NCBI GenBank assembly: GCA_016218045.1
Contig: JACRFB010000024.1
Span: 1 to 64,000, forward strand
DNA from: Ignavibacteriota bacterium
Lineage (GTDB): Bacteria; Bacteroidota; Ignavibacteria; SZUA-365
Reading direction: 5' to 3'
DNA length: 64,000 nt
Shown here: one piece after another, positions 3,490 to 59,768 of the stretch
How positions within the stretch are numbered: position 1 is the stretch's first letter
Layout of the letters: the number at the start of each line of letters is the position of its first letter
Position numbers and translations under genes: made by a program
Notes under the pieces: model-generated
Told to the model about the DNA's origin: nothing
What the model saw: the letters and a program-made list of their open reading frames with translations, nothing else
Database searches by the model: none

Positions 3490-4728
3490 CTACTCCCACA
3501 GTTTCCTCACCGGAACGGCATAGATGTTCTCACCGAAACTGATCGTCGCCGTTCCGTCGTAGAGGACCACTCCGGCACAGAAGCGCCCGCCCGCCGCACT
3601 GCGGAGTTTGCGCAGTCCACGCAGATCCGCACTGTTGACCGAGGCGGCGGCCTTGACGTCAACACCGCATACCACTCCCTGTCCTTCAATCACAATGTCC
3701 ACTTCAAAGTCGTCACGATCCCGGTAGTGTGAGAACTCAAGCGGATCCGGACGGAAGCTTGCCTGACGCCGCAATTCCTGGAGTACAAACGTCTCCAGCA
3801 TGGCACCCATCGTGGCTCGATCCCCCGCCAATGCGGTATCGTCCAGCCCGAGCAGCGCGCATGCCACCCCCGTGTCACACACATGGATCTTCGGCCGTTT
3901 CACAAGCCGCTTCAATTTGTTGATGTGCCAGGCCGGAAGCCTCTCGATCAAAAACACACGCTCGAGCAGGGCGACGTGCTCGTGAATAGTCTGTCGTGTC
4001 AATTCGAATGGTGCCGCAAGATCGGCGACGTTGATGAGTTGCGCCGTATACGCAGCCGCCAGGCGTAGGAGTTTCGGAAGCGTTTCGAACGACCGTAGTC
4101 GGCTCATGTCGCGCACGTCGCGCTGTATTTGCGTCTCGACGTAATCGCGGTACCACATGCGCCGGCGCGCAGGCGTCTTCCGCGCGAGGGCCGCCGGATA
4201 CCCGCCGGTGACAATGCGTCGCGCGAGTTCACGTCCGAGCGACGTTGACATGCCCGTGTTGAATCGACCACGCAACAGAGCATCGAGAAAACGGGGCCGC
4301 CGGTCTTCGATCTCGTTTTGCGCGAGAGGGTGGAGCCGGAGAATACCCATGCGTCCTGCGAGAGAGTCCGCAAGTCCGGGCAGGCGCAGGACATTGGCCG
4401 AGCCCGTGAGAATGAACCGCCCCATGACCCTGCGCGTGTCGATCGCGGCCTTGAGCGAGGTGAATATCCCGGGAACACGTTGCACCTCATCGAGTATGGT
4501 TCTCGAGGGCAACCCCGCGATAAAGCCGACGGGATCGGCGTTCGCCGCCGCCAATGCAGCGACGTCATCGAAGGAAATGTATGAGTACCCGCGGTGTTCA
4601 CCCACGATACGCGCCAGCGTTGTCTTCCCGCATTGCCGCGGCCCGTGGATGAGCACGGCAGGCGTGTCACGCAGCGCCTCATGGAGACGCGGCGCAACCA
4701 ATCGAGGGTATTGTAAGACGCGAGACAT
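3490..4728 (-). CDS. DUF4143-type AAA ATPase
   Basis: 412-residue ATPase of the AAA_14/DUF4143 family: an N-terminal P-loop domain and a C-terminal restriction-endonuclease-like fold. Walker A GPRQCGKTT lies at 29-37, Walker B TILDEVQR at 77-84 and a sensor-like LTGSAN at 107-112. A winged-helix-like stretch (ELTRQTIHEHVALLERVFLI) lies in the middle. The C-terminal DFEVDIVIEGQG...CGVDVKAA resembles the nuclease-like E/D-x-K core. The cellular role of this family is not settled; members occur in multiple copies and vary between strains. The gene is isolated, and its upstream region is a perfect 23-bp tandem array starting 21 bp before the ATG. Confidence 0.85.
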   Translation of the reverse strand: MSRVLQYPRLVAPRLHEALRDTPAVLIHGPRQCGKTTLARIVGEHRGYSYISFDDVAALAAANADPVGFIAGLPSRTILDEVQRVPGIFTSLKAAIDTRRVMGRFILTGSANVLRLPGLADSLAGRMGILRLHPLAQNEIEDRRPRFLDALLRGRFNTGMSTSLGRELARRIVTGGYPAALARKTPARRRMWYRDYVETQIQRDVRDMSRLRSFETLPKLLRLAAAYTAQLINVADLAAPFELTRQTIHEHVALLERVFLIERLPAWHINKLKRLVKRPKIHVCDTGVACALLGLDDTALAGDRATMGAMLETFVLQELRRQASFRPDPLEFSHYRDRDDFEVDIVIEGQGVVCGVDVKAAASVNSADLRGLRKLRSAAGGRFCAGVVLYDGTATISFGENIYAVPVRKLWE

Positions 4729-4749
4729 GCATAAACGTACGGAGGCGGG

Positions 4750-4887
4750 CGGCTGAATGCAAGTTTACCGGTCGGCTGAACGCTAGTTCAGGTGTCGGCT
4801 GAATGCTAGTTCATGTGTCGGCTGAATGCTAGTTCATGCGTCGGCTGAATGCTAGTTCACGCGTCGGCTGAATAAAAGTTCATGCGT
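4750..4887. repeat. 23-bp tandem array, six units
   Basis: Units start at 4750, 4773, 4796, 4819, 4842 and 4865, exactly 23 bp apart, with a partial seventh at 4888. The consensus is CGGCTGAATGCTAGTTCA followed by five variable bases (often TGTGT or TGCGT). Each unit has a small dyad, TGAA-TGCTAG-TTCA. The array lies directly upstream of the minus-strand ATPase gene and about 220 bp upstream of the plus-strand secreted-protein gene, so it could be a multi-site operator for either. There is no repeat-spacer alternation, so it is not a CRISPR. From 4888 to about 5050 nothing recognisable is seen. Confidence 0.9.
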
Positions 4888-5055
4888 CGGTGACAGACGG
4901 GCGTACAGGCCGGTTGTTGATGTATTCGGCGTCGAGCGGGTGCCGGCAACTGTCGGCATCACAGCCATAGGTCATTGATCGAGCAGCGTCGCGCACCCCG
5001 CGCACACGCGGCCCGCATACAACACGTGATACGTGGGGAACGATGAATTCCACTT

Positions 5056-5085
5056 TTTTCGGGACGCCGGGAAGTTCTATTTTCC
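5056..5085 (+). promoter_or_regulatory. Candidate Bacteroidota-type promoter
   Basis: TTTT at 5056-5059, an 18-nt spacer and TATTTTCC at 5078-5085 resemble the -33 / -7 (TAnnTTTG) promoter pattern. The ATG of the secreted-protein gene is at 5108, with a GCAGGAG ribosome binding site before it. The last three bases of the -7 box are not canonical, so this is tentative. Confidence 0.3.
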
Positions 5086-5107
5086 GCCTGACGTGCAGGA
5101 GTGCTTT

Positions 5108-8100
5108 ATGCGACGACTGGCTGTATTGGGAACCATCATTATCTGTTCCATACTGGCGGAGGCGCCCGGACAGAGCGCTGTACAATCGGCATCACCGTCT
5201 CGAACGGTCGTGATCGACGACACCGACTCGATAGGCACGGCGGCGCTGCTGATGTGGTTCGGCAACGATGGAACGCTGTCGCACAACGCCATGTACGACG
5301 GACCGGGATTCGAATGGCCGCGCGGGAGCGGCCACCATCTGATCTACGCCGAAGGGCCGGTGTTTGGCGGACTCGTACGCGGCGACACCTGCGCAACCGG
5401 AGCGTATTTCCGTTCGGCTCTGCAGCCAGGTCCGATACTGCCCGGCGGAACAGCGGCGGATCCCGCCGACCCGCGGCATCACATCTACCTCGCACGGCGC
5501 ATGCAGCGCGCGACGTTTGCGCAACTGCCGCCGGGTGTGCAGACACGGCTGCGCGCGGACTTCACCACCTGGCCCGCGGACCTCGGCGCCCCGTGGCTCG
5601 ACCGCAATAATAACGGACGTTACGATCCGAATTTCGAGGCCTGGCTCGACAACAACACCACCTCCGACGAACCGCTGTTCGCGGGCGAACACATCGCATG
5701 GTACGTCTCGAACGACCTCGACACGGCGCGCACATCCGCGCTGTTCGGATCCCGTCCGCTCGGCATCGAAGTCCATACCTACATCTGGACACGCGGCGGC
5801 CATCCCACTCTCGAGAACACCGTCTTTGTCCGGCATACCGTCATCAACAAAACTCCCGACGCCGTGACGGAATTTGTTCTCGGGCGCTGGACCGACTTCG
5901 AGATCGGTTTTGCCGGAGACGATTTTATGGGCTGCGACTCGGTCCGTGGAATGATGTACAGCTACAACAGCGAGGTGTCGGACCCCCTGTACAACGATCC
6001 ACCCGTGATCGGCACGATACTGTTGCAGGGACCGATCGAGGCCTCGCTTGGTGATACAGCTCTGTGGTCCTTCGGCCGTCGCGCCGGATATCGCAATCTC
6101 GGAGTTGGCGGCTTTACAAACGTCATCAAGGGTGTGCGGGGCTACGGCGATCCGCCCACTGCGGGCGCGTCGGCACGCGGGCACGTATACCGCTTTCTGC
6201 GCGGGCGCATGTCCACAGGACCGTATCCCATCGATCCGCTGACACACAACGCAACGGCGTTTCCGCTTTCGGGCGATCCGATACACATGCGGGGATGGGT
6301 GGACGGACGTGTACACCGCGCATCCGACCGCCGGGGTATCCTCGCGTGCAGCCCCGTGACCTTCCACAGCGGCGATACGCAGGAGGTCGTATATGCGACA
6401 GTTGTTGCGCAGGGACCCACACGCGCGGCCGATCTTCGACTGCTGCAGAAGCGGGCCGACGAACTTCATACCGTGTACAATGCGGGAGCGCTCACGTTCA
6501 CACCGCCCGACATCACAGCGACGGTATCCTATCCCGGCACATCCCAGACCCGCATCGACGTGCGCGGATTCATTCAAGGAGCACTCGCGGCAACCGCGCG
6601 TTTTGTGGATGGATTTGGCTCTCCGGTCGCATCCACGACATTGTTTGACGACGGGCTGCACGGCGATGGGCTGGCCGGTGACGGAACCTTTGCGGGCGTG
6701 TGGATCACCACACGTCAGGGCCGTGGTGTGGATTGTATCGTTGACGCGGACTATCCGCACACACACACCCTTACGTGGCCGGTCGCCTCGTGCCTCGCGC
6801 TCAACGGCCCCTTACACATCGGCGTCCGCATCGTCTCCGATCACCTGAACTTCCTCGCCGACGCGAATCCGGGCGAGGACATCCGGCTGGGCCTCGACGC
6901 GCGCAACGACGGCGCATTCCCCGTCGAAGCGCTCCGTGTGTTTCCGGGCGCCTGGGGAATGTACGGCTCGCGCCCGCTCGTTTTTCCCGCCGTCGTCGCG
7001 CCAGCATCAACACGCGCACTGCCCTACGACGCCCACGATGTGAACAGCTTCCTCTCGTACACCATTCCCGGCGATACTCCCGTGGGCAGCAGCCTCGCTT
7101 TCCCACTGTACACGGAAGACACGACGAATCAGTGCTGGTGCGACACCGCCCGCATCGCCGTCGCCGCACTGCGCGAACCCGTGGCCGATTCGCTCGCGGA
7201 ACATTTCGCGGGCTACGCAGCAGGCTCACTCGGCTGGCGCGTCGTCGATCGTGCCTCGCTCGACACACACGAGTATCGTGTCACGGTGCGGAGCGCCGAC
7301 ACCGCGATGCATGTGCGCACGGTCAGCATCGAGGACATGACCGCGGGGCGCATCGTGGTCGACGGGGTGTTCCTGCCGGACAGTTTCGCGCATGCAATGC
7401 CCTTGGTGGCAGGATGGAAACTCACGGCAGGCAGCACGGACAGAGAAGTCGGGAAAGCCTATGTGATGTACTCCGACGGCACAACGGCGGTCTGCGGCAG
7501 TTGGGGCTCGTGGTTCAACACACCCGCGGGAAGTACCACCGACGCCTCGCCGAACTTCACGAGAATACCACTGAGCATTCCGAAACGGTCGCGCAGCACC
7601 TGGAAGGAACTCGCGGTCGTGTCAATCGATTTCGATTCCACGCGCGGGCAGGATGTCGTCCGTTACCGCGGAACATCGCTGCAGAGCGCGGCACCGGATG
7701 GAAAAGTATCCCTGCCCTTCACGGTCTGGGCCATGCGCGATTCGATACGTGTGCGCCAGTTGAACGCGGGCATCGTGGAATCGACCGCGAGCGGCAGTCT
7801 GGACGGGCGCTGGGACAGCGGCGAACAATTGATCGTTTTTTCGTCGACATACTCCACGCCCATCCCGTCCGAGTACACACAGAACATGTTGTACCCGTAC
7901 AACGGCGCGCTCGACATCCTCTACATCGGATCATACAGCAGCACGGCCGCGTTCGCATCCTTCCGCGACGGCACACACCTGCTGCTCGATTCGCGCATAC
8001 CGGTCAGCGACGCCGATACGTTTCTCATTCGTCCCGGGCGCCGCGCGGCCCCCGTGCCGCCGCCGAAAAAGTTCGACGTGCGGACGCTGTACCCTCATCC

Positions 8101-8335
8101 GGCAAGGTCCGGCGCAGTGACGACACTGCTCGTGGACGTTCCTCAGCCCGCGCGCTGCTCGGTGCAGTTGCACAATTCCCTCGGGCGGGTCGTCTCACTC
8201 CTCGACACGGAGCTGGATACGGGCACACACACACTCGCGCTTCGCATCCCCGCCTCAATGGCCGCGGGCATGTATCAGCTCGTGCTCGTCAACGGGAGTG
8301 CCGTCGTACGGCGGCCCATGCTTCTGCTGCGCTGA
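5108..8335 (+). CDS. Giant secreted protein with T9SS type A sorting domain (copy 1)
   Basis: 1075 residues from the ATG at 5108, which has GCAGGAG 6-7 bp upstream; the upstream in-frame ATG at 5033 lacks one. A signal peptide (MRRLAVLGTIIICSILAEAP) is followed by a long region without catalytic motifs that I can name. Landmarks are DSIGTAALLMWFGNDG near the mature N-terminus, a DDGLHGDGLAGDGTFAG phrase at about 514-530 (like choice-of-anchor X modules), DANPGEDIRLGL and NQCWCDTAR at about 673-682. The C-terminal 80 or so residues begin LYPHPARSG and have the beta-strand spacing of a T9SS type A sorting domain. This implies export across the outer membrane and surface attachment or release. 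It is a close tandem paralogue of the next gene. Function unknown. Confidence 0.85.
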   Translation: MRRLAVLGTIIICSILAEAPGQSAVQSASPSRTVVIDDTDSIGTAALLMWFGNDGTLSHNAMYDGPGFEWPRGSGHHLIYAEGPVFGGLVRGDTCATGAYFRSALQPGPILPGGTAADPADPRHHIYLARRMQRATFAQLPPGVQTRLRADFTTWPADLGAPWLDRNNNGRYDPNFEAWLDNNTTSDEPLFAGEHIAWYVSNDLDTARTSALFGSRPLGIEVHTYIWTRGGHPTLENTVFVRHTVINKTPDAVTEFVLGRWTDFEIGFAGDDFMGCDSVRGMMYSYNSEVSDPLYNDPPVIGTILLQGPIEASLGDTALWSFGRRAGYRNLGVGGFTNVIKGVRGYGDPPTAGASARGHVYRFLRGRMSTGPYPIDPLTHNATAFPLSGDPIHMRGWVDGRVHRASDRRGILACSPVTFHSGDTQEVVYATVVAQGPTRAADLRLLQKRADELHTVYNAGALTFTPPDITATVSYPGTSQTRIDVRGFIQGALAATARFVDGFGSPVASTTLFDDGLHGDGLAGDGTFAGVWITTRQGRGVDCIVDADYPHTHTLTWPVASCLALNGPLHIGVRIVSDHLNFLADANPGEDIRLGLDARNDGAFPVEALRVFPGAWGMYGSRPLVFPAVVAPASTRALPYDAHDVNSFLSYTIPGDTPVGSSLAFPLYTEDTTNQCWCDTARIAVAALREPVADSLAEHFAGYAAGSLGWRVVDRASLDTHEYRVTVRSADTAMHVRTVSIEDMTAGRIVVDGVFLPDSFAHAMPLVAGWKLTAGSTDREVGKAYVMYSDGTTAVCGSWGSWFNTPAGSTTDASPNFTRIPLSIPKRSRSTWKELAVVSIDFDSTRGQDVVRYRGTSLQSAAPDGKVSLPFTVWAMRDSIRVRQLNAGIVESTASGSLDGRWDSGEQLIVFSSTYSTPIPSEYTQNMLYPYNGALDILYIGSYSSTAAFASFRDGTHLLLDSRIPVSDADTFLIRPGRRAAPVPPPKKFDVRTLYPHPARSGAVTTLLVDVPQPARCSVQLHNSLGRVVSLLDTELDTGTHTLALRIPASMAAGMYQLVLVNGSAVVRRPMLLLR

Positions 8336-8425: not shown

Positions 8426-11400
8426 ATGCGACGTGTTTCCATCCCTATCATCGTGCTGTTACTTCTATGCGGACTGCGCGCGGCCGCGCAGGAACGGCCC
8501 TTTGTTCCGCAAAGCCCTGCCCGCGTGCTGACCAACGATGCGTACGACAGCATCGGCACGTCGGCATTCACGATGTGGTTCGGGAACAACGGATCGATGA
8601 TGCACAATCCCGCTACCGACGCCAACGGCTTCGAGTGGCCGAAGGGATCGGGGAAACACGTGGGCTTCAATGCGGGACTCGTGTACGGCTGCATGTACAA
8701 GGGCGAACTCCATGCCGGCGGATCGACGTATCGACAGGGTCTGCAGGCGGGAAATATTCAATTCCCCGGACTGCCGTCCGATCCGTCCGATCCCGTACAT
8801 CACATATATATTGCTCGGCGCATCGGCGCGGCGGAGTACGCCACGCTGACGGGTCCCGAACAACAGCGCCTGCGTGCTGATTTTATGTCGTGGCCCGCAA
8901 ATCTCGGCGCGCCATGGATCGACAGGAACAGGAACGGTATCTACGATCCCGATTTCGACAGGTGGCTCGCCGACAGCGCCTCGTCCGACGGTCCGTTGCC
9001 CCTCGGTGACCAGCTCGCCTGGTTCGTCTCGAACGACATGGAGGCGAGCCGCACCTTAAATCTGTACGGCACGGAGCCCATCGGACTCGAAATACAGACA
9101 TTGCTCTGGACGTGGTCCACCGTACCATCGCTGGTGAATATGGTGTTCGTGAAACACACCCTGATCAACAAGTCCCGGGATTCGTACGATAACATGTTCA
9201 TCGGCCGCTGGGGCGATCCCGACATCGGGAGCCCGAACGACGACCTCGCGGGGTGTGACACGACGCGCGATCTCATGTATGTGTACAACGGCAACCGCGT
9301 GGACAAGTTGTACGGCGATCCGCCGGCATTCGGCACCGTGCTGCTGCAGGGGCCCATCGTCCGCGCCTCCGAGCGGGAGGCACACTGGAACTTCGGTTTA
9401 CGCGTCAATGCGATGAACCTCCGCATGTCCGCATTCACGTATTACGTTGCGGCCGATATGCAGTATCGCGATCCGCAACTCGGTCTGGCGGCCGGCTCCT
9501 CGCAGATGTATTATTCTCTCCGAGGACGCCTGTTCGACGGGACCGCGCAGATCAATCCAACGACGGGCCGGACATCAACGTATTCACTCACGGGTGATCC
9601 CGTGACGGGACGCGGCTGGCTCGACGGACAACGGTTCCGCATGGGCGACCGGCGCATTGTGCTGGGAAGCGGACCGTTCACGATGGCACCAGGCGACACG
9701 CAGGAAGTGGTGTTTGCGGACATCGTCGCGCAGGGACCGACAACGACGCGCGACATTCTCGCCTTGCGTGACGCTGCGGATGCCGCACACATACGCCACG
9801 CTCACCCCAACATCGGGATTCCCGACATCGCGGTCAGAATGCGGTACCCGGATGCTAACACCGCCGAGGTACACATGACAGGTCGTATGCAGGGCGCGGC
9901 GGGTAGCATCCCCATCGTCTTCCGCACGGGCGACGGTGTGTTGCACAATCGGGGCGTGCTTCTGGATGACGGCCTGCACGAGGATGGCGCGGCGAATGAC
10001 GGCGTGTATGGCGGAAGCTACTCCACCACACGGGCGCCCTTCGGACTCGATTGTTTCGTGTCGGTCTCCACTGGTCAACAGAACGATCCGATGGAGTGGC
10101 CCATTGCGCGCTGTCTTCCACTCTCGGGGCCGATACACATCACCGATGTTTTTGTGCAATCGGATCACCTGAATTCCGACGGACACGCGAATCCCGGAGA
10201 GAACGTGCGCATCGGAGTAACGGTTGGGAACCAAACGTCGTTCACTCTCGATACGCTCGAGATACTCGACGACGGATTCCTGCCCGGGACGATGCCCTGG
10301 ATGCAGCTCGACACACGTCTCGAGCCCGGCCGAGCGCGCACGATCGCGTACAACATGCACGACTCAGCCACCTTCGCGACCGTCGACGTCCCGGGGACTT
10401 TCCCCGTCGGCGAACGCCTCCCGCTGCCCTTCCTGTTGCGCGACGGAGCGAATCAATGCTGGTGCGACACTGCGCGTCTGCTTGTGGAGCAGCCCGCCGA
10501 AGCGCCGGTCGATTCGCTCGCGATTCATGCGGCGGGCAATGCCGTGGGCACACTCGGCTGGCGTATCACCGACCGCGCGCTGCTTGAGGACCACACGTAC
10601 CGCATCACGATTCGTGAGAGCGATCCCCTGCTGACACGCCGCACCGTGACGATTTTCGACATGACGGCATGGCGCGATGTGGTGGTGGATGCACCGTTTC
10701 CTGATCGTTATGCACATCTGATGCCCTCGAGCGACGGCTGGAAATTACACGCAGGAACGAGCACCGAGCGTCGGTTGTACGATGACGGTAGCGGCCCGGA
10801 AGTCGAACTCGTCCGCAGAACCTCCGAACTCGACCGCTGGTTGACGCCCGCCGTTGAAATCGAAACCGGAATCACATGGGGCTGGGGGAGCAAGGTGAAA
10901 TGGTTTCAACAACGGCCCATGCGCATTGTGTTCGACCCCGCGCGAACGCAGAAAGCACATTTGTACCTGCGCGGCGGTAATCCCAATTATGCCTACAGCG
11001 GCTACCACGACGTGCCGTTTACGGTATGGGACATATCGGACACACTGCGGCCGCGACAGGCGAACGCGGCATTTGTTGAACAGAAAGGCGGGCTGCGCCA
11101 GAACAACACGTGGGATCCCATAACACAAGGCGATCGCGAATACCTGTTTCTGTTCACGTCGGACTACTCCGACACGCCACAGGACCTGTACACACGCACG
11201 CCGATTTTCCCCAATGGCGCGGCGACGTTCGATCTTCAGTACGCAACATGGCTGTGGCGTGACACCGTGGCCGGGGCGCTTCCACCGGGCTTCAGCATCA
11301 CGGTCATCCCGCTTGTCCCCGTCTCCTCCGTGGACACGTTCTACGTGAATCCAAAGGGGCGTGTCAACGGCATCGAGACGCGCACGCCGGACCGGCGACT

Positions 11401-11668
11401 CGACATCGGATCGCTGTATCCGAATCCCGCGCGGGTGGGCGCGGTCGTCCACCTGCCCGTGAACAGCAGCACACGCAGCACGCTCCGTATCAGCGTGTAC
11501 GACGCGCTCGGAAGGCGCGCGGCTGCGCCGACGGACGCGACGGCGCACCCCGGCCGGACCATACTCCCCGTTCCGCAGACCGCACATCTCCGCAGCGGCG
11601 TGTACCGGATCGTGATCGAGGATGGAGCGGGAGCGCAGCGCACCATCCCGTTACTCGTGCACCAGTAA
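8426..11668 (+). CDS. Giant secreted protein with T9SS type A sorting domain (copy 2)
   Basis: 1080 residues with a signal peptide ending near RAAAQERP. It is co-linear with the gene upstream over its whole length. The DSIGTSAFTMWFGNNG start, the DDGLHEDGAANDGVYGG phrase (about 514), HANPGENVRIGV, NQCWCDTAR (about 676) and the C-terminal sorting domain (LYPNPARVG at about 997) fall at nearly the same residue numbers. The two genes are therefore a tandem duplication that has diverged considerably. The 90-bp gap has no terminator, so co-transcription is possible. Role unknown; plausible roles are a surface-displayed adhesin or a binding protein. No protease or glycosidase active site is visible. 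Confidence 0.85.
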   Translation: MRRVSIPIIVLLLLCGLRAAAQERPFVPQSPARVLTNDAYDSIGTSAFTMWFGNNGSMMHNPATDANGFEWPKGSGKHVGFNAGLVYGCMYKGELHAGGSTYRQGLQAGNIQFPGLPSDPSDPVHHIYIARRIGAAEYATLTGPEQQRLRADFMSWPANLGAPWIDRNRNGIYDPDFDRWLADSASSDGPLPLGDQLAWFVSNDMEASRTLNLYGTEPIGLEIQTLLWTWSTVPSLVNMVFVKHTLINKSRDSYDNMFIGRWGDPDIGSPNDDLAGCDTTRDLMYVYNGNRVDKLYGDPPAFGTVLLQGPIVRASEREAHWNFGLRVNAMNLRMSAFTYYVAADMQYRDPQLGLAAGSSQMYYSLRGRLFDGTAQINPTTGRTSTYSLTGDPVTGRGWLDGQRFRMGDRRIVLGSGPFTMAPGDTQEVVFADIVAQGPTTTRDILALRDAADAAHIRHAHPNIGIPDIAVRMRYPDANTAEVHMTGRMQGAAGSIPIVFRTGDGVLHNRGVLLDDGLHEDGAANDGVYGGSYSTTRAPFGLDCFVSVSTGQQNDPMEWPIARCLPLSGPIHITDVFVQSDHLNSDGHANPGENVRIGVTVGNQTSFTLDTLEILDDGFLPGTMPWMQLDTRLEPGRARTIAYNMHDSATFATVDVPGTFPVGERLPLPFLLRDGANQCWCDTARLLVEQPAEAPVDSLAIHAAGNAVGTLGWRITDRALLEDHTYRITIRESDPLLTRRTVTIFDMTAWRDVVVDAPFPDRYAHLMPSSDGWKLHAGTSTERRLYDDGSGPEVELVRRTSELDRWLTPAVEIETGITWGWGSKVKWFQQRPMRIVFDPARTQKAHLYLRGGNPNYAYSGYHDVPFTVWDISDTLRPRQANAAFVEQKGGLRQNNTWDPITQGDREYLFLFTSDYSDTPQDLYTRTPIFPNGAATFDLQYATWLWRDTVAGALPPGFSITVIPLVPVSSVDTFYVNPKGRVNGIETRTPDRRLDIGSLYPNPARVGAVVHLPVNSSTRSTLRISVYDALGRRAAAPTDATAHPGRTILPVPQTAHLRSGVYRIVIEDGAGAQRTIPLLVHQ

Positions 11669-19850: not shown

Positions 19851-20222
19851 TTGGTAGATGGTAGTTGGGTAGGCCGATCTATTCAAATCGTGTGAGGAGA
19901 CAGGAGACAGGATACAGGAGACAGGCACTGATTCGGCCCCTGTCTCCTGACTCCTTCCTCCTGACTCCTCACGCGACTGTGAGGAGACAGGATACTGGAG
20001 ACAGGCACTGATTCGGCCCCTGTCTCCTGACTCCTTCCTCCTGACTCCTAACGCGAGTGTGAGGAGACAGGATACTGGAGACAGGAGACATGCACTGATT
20101 CGGCCCCTGTCTCCTGACTCCTTCCTCCTGACTCCTGACGCGAGTGTGAGGAGACAGGATACTGGAGACATGCACTGATTCGGCCCCTGTCTCCTGACTC
20201 CTTCCTCCTGACTCCTGACGCG
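19848..20222. repeat. Composite repeat: TAG array, core palindrome and four long units
   Basis: A GTAGTTGGTAGATGG run begins on the stop codon of the peptidase gene. After GATCTATTC, four units of about 80-87 bp start near 19892, 19979, 20059 and 20145. Each contains GTGAGGAGACAGGATAC, a CACTGATTCGGCC loop and CTGTCTCCTGACTCC. GGAGACAGG and CCTGTCTCC within a unit can pair into a hairpin. Unit junctions carry CCTCACGCGACTGTGAGG-type palindromes. The next gene is convergent. From 20223 to 20263 nothing is seen. Confidence 0.88.
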
Positions 20223-20263
20223 AATGAACAGATCCAACGATCTAGTGTTTTCCCGCAGTAGAC

Positions 20264-28980: not shown

Positions 28981-31245
28981 ATGAAAATCAGAAAAGAAGA
29001 TGCCCTCGAGTACCATAGCATGGGCCGAAAGGGCAAGATCGAGGTTGTGACGACAAAGCCCTGCGTGACGCAGCGCGACCTGTCGCTCGCGTACACGCCC
29101 GGCGTGGCCGAACCGTGCCGCGAGATACACAAGAACGACGACCTGGTCTTCGAATACACGGCAAAGGGGAATCTCGTCGCGGTGATCTCGAACGGCACCG
29201 CGGTGCTGGGACTGGGCGACATCGGTCCGCACGCCGGCAAGCCGGTGATGGAGGGCAAGGGCGTCCTCTTCAAAACCTTCGCCGACATCGACGTGTTCGA
29301 CATCGAACTCGACTCGAAGGACGTGCAGGAAATCATTCGTGTGTGCCAGGTGCTCGAACCGACCTTCGGCGGCATCAACCTCGAGGACATCAAGGGGCCG
29401 GAGTGTTTCTACATCGAGCAGGAATTGAAGCGCACGATGAAGATTCCGGTGTTCCACGACGATCAGCACGGCACGGCCATCATCAGCGGCGCGGCGCTGA
29501 TCAACGCGGTGGAAATCGTCGGCAAAAAACTCGACGAAGTGAAAGTGGTGTTCAACGGAGCCGGCGCCTCGGGTATCGCCTGCGCCACCTTCCACATCTC
29601 GCTCGGCGTGAAGAAGGAAAACGTGACGCTCTGCGATACAAAGGGTGTGATCTACAAGGGCCGCACCGAACACATGAACGAATTCAAGGAGGACTTCGCG
29701 ATCGAGACCTCGGCGCGCACACTGGCCGATGCGCTGGTGGGCGCCGATGTGTTCGTGGGTCTGTCGTCGGGCAACATGGTGACTCCCGACATGGTGCGTT
29801 CCATGGCCCCGAATCCGATCATCTTCGCGATGGCGAATCCCGATCCGGAAATCACCTACGAGGATGCGATCGGCGCGCGTCCCGACATCATCATGGCGAC
29901 CGGACGCTCCGACTATCCGAATCAGGTCAACAACGTGCTCGGCTTCCCCTTCATCTTCCGCGGCGCGCTCGATGTGCAGGCCACCGCGATCAACGAGGAG
30001 ATGAAGCAGGCCGCTTCGTACGCGCTCGCGTCGCTCGCGAAGGAGGACGTGCCCGAGAGTGTGAAACGCGCTTACGGCGTGACCGAAATGGCCTTCGGAC
30101 GCGAGTACATCATTCCGAAGCCCTTCGATCCGCGCGTGCTCACATACGTGGCCCCCGCGGTCGCCAAGGCGGCGATGGACACCGGCGTCGCGCGCAGGCC
30201 GATCGAGGACTTCGACGCGTACAAACATCAGCTCGACATACGCATGGGCCGTTCGCAGGTGATCATGACGCCGATCTACGACAAGGCCAGCAAATCACCC
30301 AAACGTGTCGTGCTGCCCGAGGGCGATCAGCCGCGTGTCATCAAGGCCGCGCAGCTCGCGGTGGACGAGGGCATCGCCCATCCGATCCTGCTCGGCAACG
30401 CCGACATCATCCGCGGCATCGCCGACGAACACGGGTACGATCTCACGGGCGTCGAGATTGTCGATCCGAAAAAACACGAGAAGTCCGACTCGTACATCGA
30501 GGCCTTCTACAAGCTGCGCCAGCGCAAGGGAGTGACGCGCTACTATGCGCGTCGCGACCTGCTTTCGCTCAAGAACTACTACGGCGCCATGATGCTGCAT
30601 CAGGGCGACGCCGACGGCATGCTCTCGGGCTACACCTCGCACTATCCCGACACCGTGCGTCCGGCGCTGCAGATCATCGGCCGCGATCCGCGGTACAAGG
30701 TGGTCTCGGGCCTCTACGTGCTCGCCTTCAAGAAGCAGGCCTTCCTGCTCGCCGACACGACCGTCAACATCGATCCCACGCCCGAGGCGCTGGCCGACAT
30801 CGCGTGCCAGACGGCTGAATTCGCTGCCAACTTCGACATCGTTCCGCGCGTCGCGATGTTGTCGTACAGCAACTTCGGCTCGAATCTCGAGGCCTCCCCC
30901 CGCAAGGTGCGCCAGGCCCTCGAGATCGTCCAGCAGCGCTGCCCCGACCTCATGGTCGACGGCGAGATGCAGGCCGACACCGCCGTGGTACCCGACATCA
31001 TCAACGAGACCTTCCCCTTCTCGACACTGAAGGGCGGCGCCAACGTGCTCATCTTCCCCGACCTCAACGCGGGCAACATCGCCTACAAGCTGCTCGCCCG
31101 CATCGGCGGCGCGAATCCCATCGGTCCCATCCTGCTCGGCATGGGCAAGGCGGTACACGTGCTGCAGCGGGGCTCGGACGTGAAGGAGATTCTCGACATG
31201 ATCGCCATTACCGTCGCGGATGCCATTCGTAAAGAAGGATTGTAG
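28981..31245 (+). CDS. maeB: NADP-dependent malic enzyme fused to a phosphotransacetylase-like domain
   Basis: 754 residues from the ATG at 28981; an upstream in-frame start adds 31 residues without family similarity. The malic enzyme part (about 1-400) decarboxylates malate to pyruvate: [24 protein letters not shown] with the metal-binding Asp pair, [14 protein letters not shown] as Rossmann nucleotide site and [11 protein letters not shown]. The C-terminal part (about 415-750) is a phosphotransacetylase-like domain ([36 protein letters not shown]). As in MaeB of Escherichia coli, this domain normally serves oligomerisation and acetyl-CoA sensing rather than catalysis. The TAG stop begins a GTAGACG array. 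Confidence 0.95.
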
Positions 31246-31354
31246 ACGGAAGACGTGAGACGGTAGACGGTAGACGGTAGACGTGAGACGGTAGACGTGA
31301 GACGGTAGACGTGAGACGGTAGACGTGAGACGGTAGACGTGAGACGGTAGACGT
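31243..31354. repeat. GTAGACG / GTGAGACG array starting on the maeB stop codon
   Basis: TAGACGG and TGAGACGG units alternate, giving a 14-bp higher-order period (AGACGTGAGACGGT) repeated about six times. The first TAG is the maeB stop codon, and TAG and TGA recur in shifting frames along the array. It ends directly at the maeB terminator. Confidence 0.9.
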
Positions 31355-31385
31355 GAAGGCGCGGCGAATCAGCCGCGCCTTCTTA
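31355..31385 (+). terminator. Intrinsic terminator of maeB
   Basis: A perfect 11-bp stem GAAGGCGCGGC / GCCGCGCCTTC with a 6-nt loop (31355-31382) is followed by TTACTTTC. It lies at the end of the GTAGACG array after maeB. Confidence 0.8.
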
Positions 31386-58920: not shown

Positions 58921-59768
58921 TCGAATGTATCGCCAGGGCTGGGAGTGGAGGTGGTAGCGGGTTAGAGAGTAGATGGGTAGAGGGTAGATTGATCAACTCT
59001 ATCCGTGTGAGGAGACAGGAGACAGGATGCGGGAGACGAGAGACGGGAGACGGGAGACGAGAGACGGGAGACGAGAGACGGGAGACGAGAGGCGACTGAA
59101 CACCCATAAAATCGGATTACCCCCTCTTTTTAAGAGGGCGAAGGGGGAGTGGGCTGCAGGATGAGCATTGAATGCGACGTGATCCTCCCGTTGCCGATCC
59201 CCACGCCTCACGGCGTGGGTTGATGAATGCCGCCCGCTTCGCGGGCTCTGCGGACTCTTAAGGCGATGAGACGATCAGACGATCAGACGATTAGACGATC
59301 AGACGATCAGACGATCAGACGATCAGACGATCAGACGATCAGACGATTGGACGATTAGACGATTAGACGATCAGACGATCAGACGATCAGACGATTAGAC
59401 GATTGGACGATTAGACGATAAAGCGACACAGCGGTCCGATTCTCTCCGCGATCCATGCGGCGTGTGCGTGAGTCGCGAATCACATCCGACAGGGGCGACC
59501 GGCGGTCGCCCTACACCACCACGGAACACGCACAAAACACAGCCCGGAACAGATCAGTCACCCTTTCCCGGAACGGGGAGTGGGACGGGGTGAGGGTGCG
59601 TATGCCGCCCGCTTCGCGGGCTCTCTGCGATTTGGGGCCGCGCCGATACACCGCGCGCCCCAGCCCGATATTCCTCCTGTCTCCTCTATCCTGTCTCCTC
59701 ACACCGAATAGAATAGACCACACTCCCCCAGCCCCCAACTCCCACATCTAGATCCTAACCCCTAACTC
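58921..59768. repeat. Repeat zone holding several distinct repeat families
   Basis: No gene is supported in these 848 bp. Contents in order: GTAGATGGGTAGAGG run, TTGATCAACTCTATC, CGTGTGAGG core and GGGAGACGAGAGAC array (58960-59098); a CCCCCTCTTTTTAAGAGGGC element (59119-59150); a CCCACGCC-TCAC-GGCGTGGG hairpin (59200-59219); GCCCGC-TTC-GCGGGC (59232-59246); the AGACGATC array (59269-59420); GGGCGACC-GGC-GGTCGCCC (59493-59511); a CCCGGAACGGGGAGTGGGACGG-like element (59570-59597); a second GCCGCCCGCTTCGCGGGCTCT (59605-59625); and TCCTGTCTCCTC with AACTCCTAGCTCCT runs to 59768. Several of these look like REP-type elements. Confidence 0.8.
59269..59420. repeat. 8-bp tandem array AGACGATC, 19 units
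   Basis: Nineteen consecutive 8-bp units (AGACGATC, AGACGATT or GGACGATT, ending AGACGATA) run without a gap in phase. Most units carry a GATC site. The length is likely to vary between strains. No open reading frame of interest crosses it. Confidence 0.92.

Follow-up and report, generated by a model that had tools for sequence, protein, structure and literature searches.

Known systems related to the locus

Plasmid iterons are direct repeats associated with an autorepressing winged-helix Rep initiator. The array described here resembles them in that direct repeats, contiguous and spaced by about two helical turns, precede a gene whose product has a winged helix, but it has no known or expected origin function. 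The protein also differs, being a STAND-like ATPase with a nuclease-like domain, and some clades of its family use palindromes and one a three-turn period. BldC, a small MerR-like protein that is unrelated to the DUF4143 ATPase and has no ATPase, is comparable in forming cooperative multimer rows on direct repeats at promoters. Type II toxin-antitoxin loci likewise place a locus-specific operator just before their own gene, whereas the DUF4143 locus is without an antitoxin partner and the regulator would be the ATPase itself. SSO1545, PABY2304 and Cdc6/Orc1 (2qby) combine an ATPase with a winged helix, as does the protein studied here. To our knowledge, no cis array is known for SSO1545 or PABY2304; the 2qby structure is titled as Cdc6/Orc1 bound to origin DNA.

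The ATPase belongs to PDC-S01, for which 9,986 archaeal and 29,494 bacterial cases were counted in a survey in which it ranks as the fourth commonest prokaryotic defence and is unvalidated (PMC12988326). The accessible sections of that survey assign it a PD-(D/E)-X-K domain, treat it as an unvalidated single gene without mention of a cis element, and describe validation as pending for most such candidate defences (PMC12988326). A published report of such arrays was not found in our literature search, the coverage of which excluded most subscription papers and all preprints.

A 23-bp array upstream of a DUF4143 ATPase gene

The window, that is, the whole 64,000-nucleotide stretch of DNA analysed, contains the following array (motif positions are given for each unit).

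4729–4749, minus strand: 21-bp gap between array and start codon
4750–4887, minus strand: six-unit 23-bp array; gene-strand unit approximately ACRCATGAACTAGCATTCAGCCG
4750–4772, minus strand: unit nearest the gene; motif TTGCATTCAGCCG at 4750–4762
4773–4795, minus strand: unit 2; motif TAGCGTTCAGCCG at 4773–4785
4796–4818, minus strand: unit 3; motif TAGCATTCAGCCG at 4796–4808
4819–4841, minus strand: unit 4; motif TAGCATTCAGCCG at 4819–4831
4842–4864, minus strand: unit 5; motif TAGCATTCAGCCG at 4842–4854
4865–4887, minus strand: distal unit; motif TTTTATTCAGCCG at 4865–4877

The first-pass annotation had described six units at an exact spacing of 23 bp, beginning 21 bp upstream of the ATPase start and unlike the other repeats of the window, and this description was confirmed. 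The units are contiguous and all five intervals are exactly 23 bp; the lag-23 self-match score of the region 4400–5200 was 89, far above the maximum of 15.2 in 1000 dinucleotide shuffles. Read on the minus strand, the array runs into the 412-aa gene (3490–4728, minus strand), and the measured gap to its ATG (4726–4728) is 21 bp. No other 23-bp array in the window was listed by Tandem Repeats Finder. The window units are contiguous at 23 bp, and hence do not have the CRISPR-type layout of repeats and unique spacers.

The dyad that had been claimed for each unit fared less well. The exact TGAA-TGCTAG-TTCA string occurs in only three of the six units, although five carry the TGAA and TTCA arms when other middles are counted too; the gene-proximal unit ends in TTTA. 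The part invariant in all six units is CGGCTGAA (gene strand TTCAGCCG). As a recognised feature the dyad is weak, and it was rejected for the clade of the window ATPase because what its relatives conserve is the asymmetric CAATTGGMCG, which lies on the sense strand in nearly all cases; palindromes do serve in other clades.

Predicted domains and fold of the ATPase

The gene and its domains are as follows.

3490–4728, minus strand: gene for the 412-aa ATPase; Pfam AAA_14 and DUF4143, PADLOC PDC-S01
4309–4662, minus strand: AAA_14 domain, residues 23–140; Walker A GPRQCGKT at 29–36, Walker B D80 E81
3649–4125, minus strand: Pfam DUF4143, residues 202–360
3877–4035, minus strand: winged-helix region, residues 232–284, inside DUF4143 (AlphaFold2 model)
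3958–3996, minus strand: recognition helix, residues 245–257 (AlphaFold2 model)

The protein was identified as a PDC-S01 member by PADLOC (PDLC04790, E 6.9e-159) and as a DUF4143 protein by Pfam (E 3.8e-41). Residues G29, R31, G34, K35, D80 and E81 are invariant. E342, D344, E357 and K359 are nearly invariant (the window protein has D357) and resemble a PD-(D/E)XK site. The AlphaFold2 model (mean pLDDT 94.4, pTM 0.93) contains a helix-turn-helix and a wing, and the ATPase core, helical domain and winged helix all lie in one chain. Among the solved structural matches listed, the best were PABY2304 (2qen; Z 15.8 over 257 residues) and SSO1545 (2fna; Z 15.2 over 254 residues), after which NLR and CED-4 modules ranked. 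Because the best matches are archaeal ATPases followed by NLR and CED-4 modules, the modelled ATPase has the architecture of a STAND switch, to which belong a winged helix and, in this protein, a nuclease-like tail.

Upstream repeats in related loci

DUF4143 was found in 53 of 100 relatives. The first sample consisted of 91 near-full-length loci (the two of the source genome, 29 fetched by search and 60 hand-chosen from the search list), with fragments and weaker matches left out. Upstream DNA was usable at 87 loci, and the best lag reached p ≤ 0.02 at 44 of them; at 41 of the 44 this lag was 22, 23, 32, 33 or 34 bp. The second sample was obtained by a profile scan of one-genome-per-species contigs, from which the best 80 of 549 relatives were taken together with ten plasmid loci; archaea were not among the sampled loci. 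According to their record titles, the best 80 of 549 came from Acidobacteria, Planctomycetes, Proteobacteria, Chloroflexi, Nitrospirae, Actinobacteria, Verrucomicrobia, Spirochaetes and others. In this sample 86 of 90 loci were usable and 52 reached p ≤ 0.02, with a lag of 22 bp in 25, 23 in 20, 44 in five, 45 in one and 29 in one.

These periods are concentrated directly upstream of the genes. Lags of 22, 23, 44 or 45 at p ≤ 0.02 were detected in 47 of 83 upstream regions, compared with none of 85 gene bodies, 1 of 84 downstream regions and 2 of 157 regions further upstream; for any lag, the downstream and further-upstream controls gave 5 of 84 and 10 of 157. The check proposed in the first-pass annotation asked whether related DUF4143 ATPase loci carry upstream direct repeats of their own; many do, with periods close to two or three helical turns. 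Among other ATPase families of the relatives, AAA_15 loci gave 0 of 22 and ATPase_2 loci 2 of 10, at lags of 39 and 27, with a 22/23-bp array in none of the 10; the loci used (22 of 30 fetched for AAA_15, 10 of 30 for ATPase_2) were those with a match near the protein start or passing the cut-off.

A held-out set comprised 37 new loci, namely 26 of 30 fetched loci (four already used were left out), ten plasmids and one virus, of which one locus was unusable. Lags of 22, 23, 44 or 45 at p ≤ 0.02 were found in 23 of the 36, and the matrix described below, applied without refitting, detected 16 of 36 in sense and 1 of 36 in antisense. Virus-borne copies of the ATPase had 22/23-bp arrays in 3 of 13 cases. 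The two DUF4143-type genes on Thermus thermophilus pTT27 showed no direct-repeat array (p 0.184 and 0.403); one of them has GAATGACTATCATTC just before its ATG. In a published expression study, TT_P0211 (AAA 14, DUF4143) is reported to be 6.6-fold up in the wild type with plasmid relative to that without, and to show no such change in the ago mutant (PMC4406477); TT_P0211 may be the same gene as TT_RS11170.

Arrays away from such ATPases, and related loci without repeats, had been named in advance as findings that would speak against the association. Both occur in a minor way, as orphan arrays and as a clade with inverted repeats. Upstream iterated or palindromic elements are generally a trait of DUF4143 ATPase genes.

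As a separate observation, on a Sulfitobacter plasmid (L184, 1513–4227) the ATPase gene, which has a 22-bp array, adjoins genes for a restriction endonuclease and QatA; these surroundings are defence-like.

Motif and period across ATPase clades

In a FastTree tree of 172 proteins, the clade of the window ATPase (A) has arrays of the asymmetric core CAATTGGMCG, the period being 22 or 23 bp and the unit approximately TTNCAATTGGCCG. Other clades carry TGAGTA...TACTCA at 22 bp, GTGGAT...ATCCAC at 22 bp, or AT-rich dyads at 32–34 bp. With motif patterns that were set after seeing the same loci, the clade A motif was found in 66 of 75 members versus 2 of 96 elsewhere, the clade B motif in 9 of 13 versus 2 of 158, and the clade C motif in 8 of 17 versus 0 of 154. 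The two-turn and three-turn periods require a single change on the tree, compared with at least 9 in 500 shuffles; the three-turn clade is AT-rich (mean GC 0.29), and chance matches are therefore likelier there. One further clade (L049, L029, L072, L187, L027, L012 and others) instead has long inverted repeats directly upstream, in 18 of 28 loci at p ≤ 0.02 (40 shuffles); their arms of 11–26 bp lie within about 110 bp of the start, without direct repeats.

Five genomes (G000, G004, G005, G008 and G089) contain A and B paralogues together, each keeping its own motif. The elements sort by clade and same-genome paralogues differ; thus, the motif goes with the ATPase and not with the host. Among held-out clade B loci, judged by eye, three of four plasmid relatives (two Bacteroides and one Collinsella) show 22-bp repeats of the GAGTA, GAACA or TACTCA type, and the Thermus oshimai locus has no clear 22-bp repeats.

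The arrays of clade A are also oriented. Using a 13-bp matrix with chained spacing, fitted on the same 75 loci, 66 of 75 exceeded the 99% shuffle limit in sense and 1 of 75 in antisense, with a chain above the limit absent in nine members. The last unit mostly ends 0–60 bp before the start codon.

Covariation between the recognition helix and the motif

Among 11,660 residue-base pairs in 64 clade members, residue 246 and motif base 3 ranked first (phi 0.93), and residue 246 and base 2 ranked second (phi 0.88); this covariation rests on few evolutionary events, with 3 to 5 independent pairs, and a sign test therefore cannot reach 0.05. For base 3, K occurs with C in 18 members and non-K without C in 44, with two cases of non-K with C and none of K without C. 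Residues 250, 244 and 245 also appear in the top ten, as do 332, 283 and 271 outside the recognition helix. Overall, residues 244–246 and 250 covary with motif bases 2–4: at 244–246, SRP pairs with TTTC, TTGC or TTAC, DGK-type residues with TCCG, and SHK with TNCC. Of the 16 held-out loci with K246, 15 have C as base 3 when judged by eye, 11 of these belonging to a single genus, and the exception is L352, which has an unlike motif; none of 13 held-out non-K loci with a clade A chain reads C there.

Taken together, we consider it probable, at roughly 0.75, that the array is an autoregulatory operator of the ATPase gene, bound by the winged helix of the ATPase itself. The earlier proposals of a cooperative protein-binding array and of a self-recognition site, taken as one, are well supported at the level of sequence by the arrays of the relatives, the clade-tracking motif and the helix covariation. 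In STAND proteins the winged helix frequently has no DNA-binding role, which counts against self-binding. Binding, cooperativity, repression rather than activation and a defence trigger are each steps that we infer. In such a mechanism, each 13-bp core (approximately TTNCAATTGGCCG; TAGCATTCAGCCG in the window) would take one winged helix, and the two-turn pitch would align the copies along a single face of the DNA, where adjacent STAND-like ATPase modules could make contact and bind cooperatively. The bound row would cover the promoter and keep expression low (autorepression), and the gene would be released when the ATPase is drawn away or its nucleotide state changes, for example during invasion. 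A clade-specific operator array would be a first handle on the binding targets of PDC-S01 proteins and on the way their activity is restrained. The arrays also provide DNA that can go directly into biochemical and reporter assays, and together with their ATPases they form natural protein-DNA pairs from which winged-helix specificity could be learned.

A more far-reaching proposal, which we regard as speculative and rather unlikely, goes beyond mere expression control. The family would be a superfamily of single-gene STAND-like ATPase-nucleases with their own diversifying DNA-recognition code, each lineage having a private oriented array with a row or filament of the ATPase on it. The array would then serve as a defence switch, either by keeping the ATPase in an inactive on-DNA assembly until invasion frees it or by marking self.

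That the array is instead an operator for a host regulator appears improbable. At some loci the array may overlap the promoter region, which would be expected of an operator for any regulator, and some arrays stand without an ATPase. However, motif and period track the ATPase clade across phyla, same-genome paralogues have different arrays, and of all ATPase residues the one that covaries best is part of the recognition helix.

Arrays apart from DUF4143 genes

Unit pairs were searched in the 100 relatives and the source genome. At a pitch of 23 bp with ≤ 2 mismatches, 14 places were found, seven before a DUF4143 gene, one just after such a gene (G010), and six without DUF4143 within 1.5 kb (contig C14 of the source genome, G089 C19, G027 C10, two duplicated in G006 C9 and one in G023, the last inside a reading frame); the reversed pattern gave 10 single hits at ≤ 3 mismatches. 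At a pitch of 22 bp there were 10 places, six at a DUF4143 gene or its pieces, one at a truncated copy (G007 C117) and three without (G002 C3, with four units, G097 and G059), and the reversed pattern gave none. The two G006 arrays (C9:45118 and 36818; L205 and L218) are 8.3 kb apart and have flanking DNA in common on their downstream side, which includes the palindrome TTGCATCGCATTTGATGCAA; in a search of four genomes, one piece of this flanking DNA was found only there.

The source assembly (4.77 Mb, 72 contigs) has one other DUF4143 gene, on C37, with a different element consisting of TACTCA/TGAGTA half-sites at a 22-bp pitch. The window motif recurs, at the 23-bp pitch of the window array, as the orphan pair on C14 (22489–22524; L009 3990–4025). 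On one side of this pair a divergent oxidoreductase-like gene starts at a distance of about 290 bp; on the other, about 200 bp away, comes a small gene and then a PIN-like gene (names assigned by eye). A DUF4143 remnant was absent from the 8-kb locus around it. Because the pair carries the idiosyncratic CATTCAGCCG core of the window array, it fits a second site of the same protein and may be a second target of the window ATPase. Single sites in the source genome (TTNCATTCAGCCG, ≤ 2 mismatches; 169 and 204, versus 54 and 67 for the reversed pattern) were set aside, since a reversed pattern controls poorly for coding bias.

Recombination had been the third suggestion of the first-pass annotation, and a recombination or homing site, at which the ATPase-nuclease would cut or join DNA and by which the gene would spread, now seems quite improbable. 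The PD-(D/E)XK-like domain of the ATPase would suit such a role and orphan arrays could be empty sites. In G010, a second array (C33:6700–6735; L204, 1501–1536) follows the ATPase stop by about 63 bp in the same orientation, so that the gene is flanked on both sides. In G007, at an end of contig C117 (L228, 1501–1679), no more than about 45 bp separate an array from a DUF4143 frame that sets in midway, from residue 213 on; this is either a 5'-truncated copy or an assembly join. Despite these two cases, downstream arrays at lags of 22, 23, 44 or 45 occurred at only 1 of 84 loci, and among relatives the arrays have varying numbers of units and varying spacings and are oriented towards the gene.

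Promoter register and leader

The 22/23-bp pitch is the usual start-to-start distance of −35 and −10 elements. In clade A, a TTGAC-like hexamer stands 5 bp ahead of where the penultimate unit starts at 10 of 64 loci, which are all from Alphaproteobacteria or titled only Proteobacteria and therefore not independent; the strongest other offset or unit reached 11% (of 44). A −10-like hexamer occurs at the same offset of the last unit in 8%. No sigma-70-type promoter was recognised by consensus at the window array.

An action of the array in the mRNA leader rather than in DNA would agree with its location near the start codon and with the sense orientation that nearly all loci of the clade share, but we judge it very improbable. 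The pitch is fixed at 22/23 or 32–34 bp, several clades have gapless palindromes that are unable to fold as hairpins, and the −10-like hexamer lies at the last unit in Alphaproteobacteria, so that most units would not be transcribed. The window array itself gave no stable fold (z −0.38) and no Rfam match up to E 1. A replication or partition site (iteron- or parS-like) standing beside the gene by chance is scarcely credible: pitch and winged-helix partner recall iterons, but the window copy lies next to a kinase gene in a chromosome-sized 4.77-Mb assembly, copies in many phyla each precede an ATPase gene of this family, and promoter hexamers stand in register at some loci.

With respect to the surroundings of the window array, two long similar proteins in tandem (5033–8335 and 8426–11668) begin across the array from the ATPase. 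Unrelated tandem repeats with periods of 8, 14, 80 and 148 bp occur elsewhere in the window, at 1171–1580, 19890–20223, 31244–31356 and 59264–59419.
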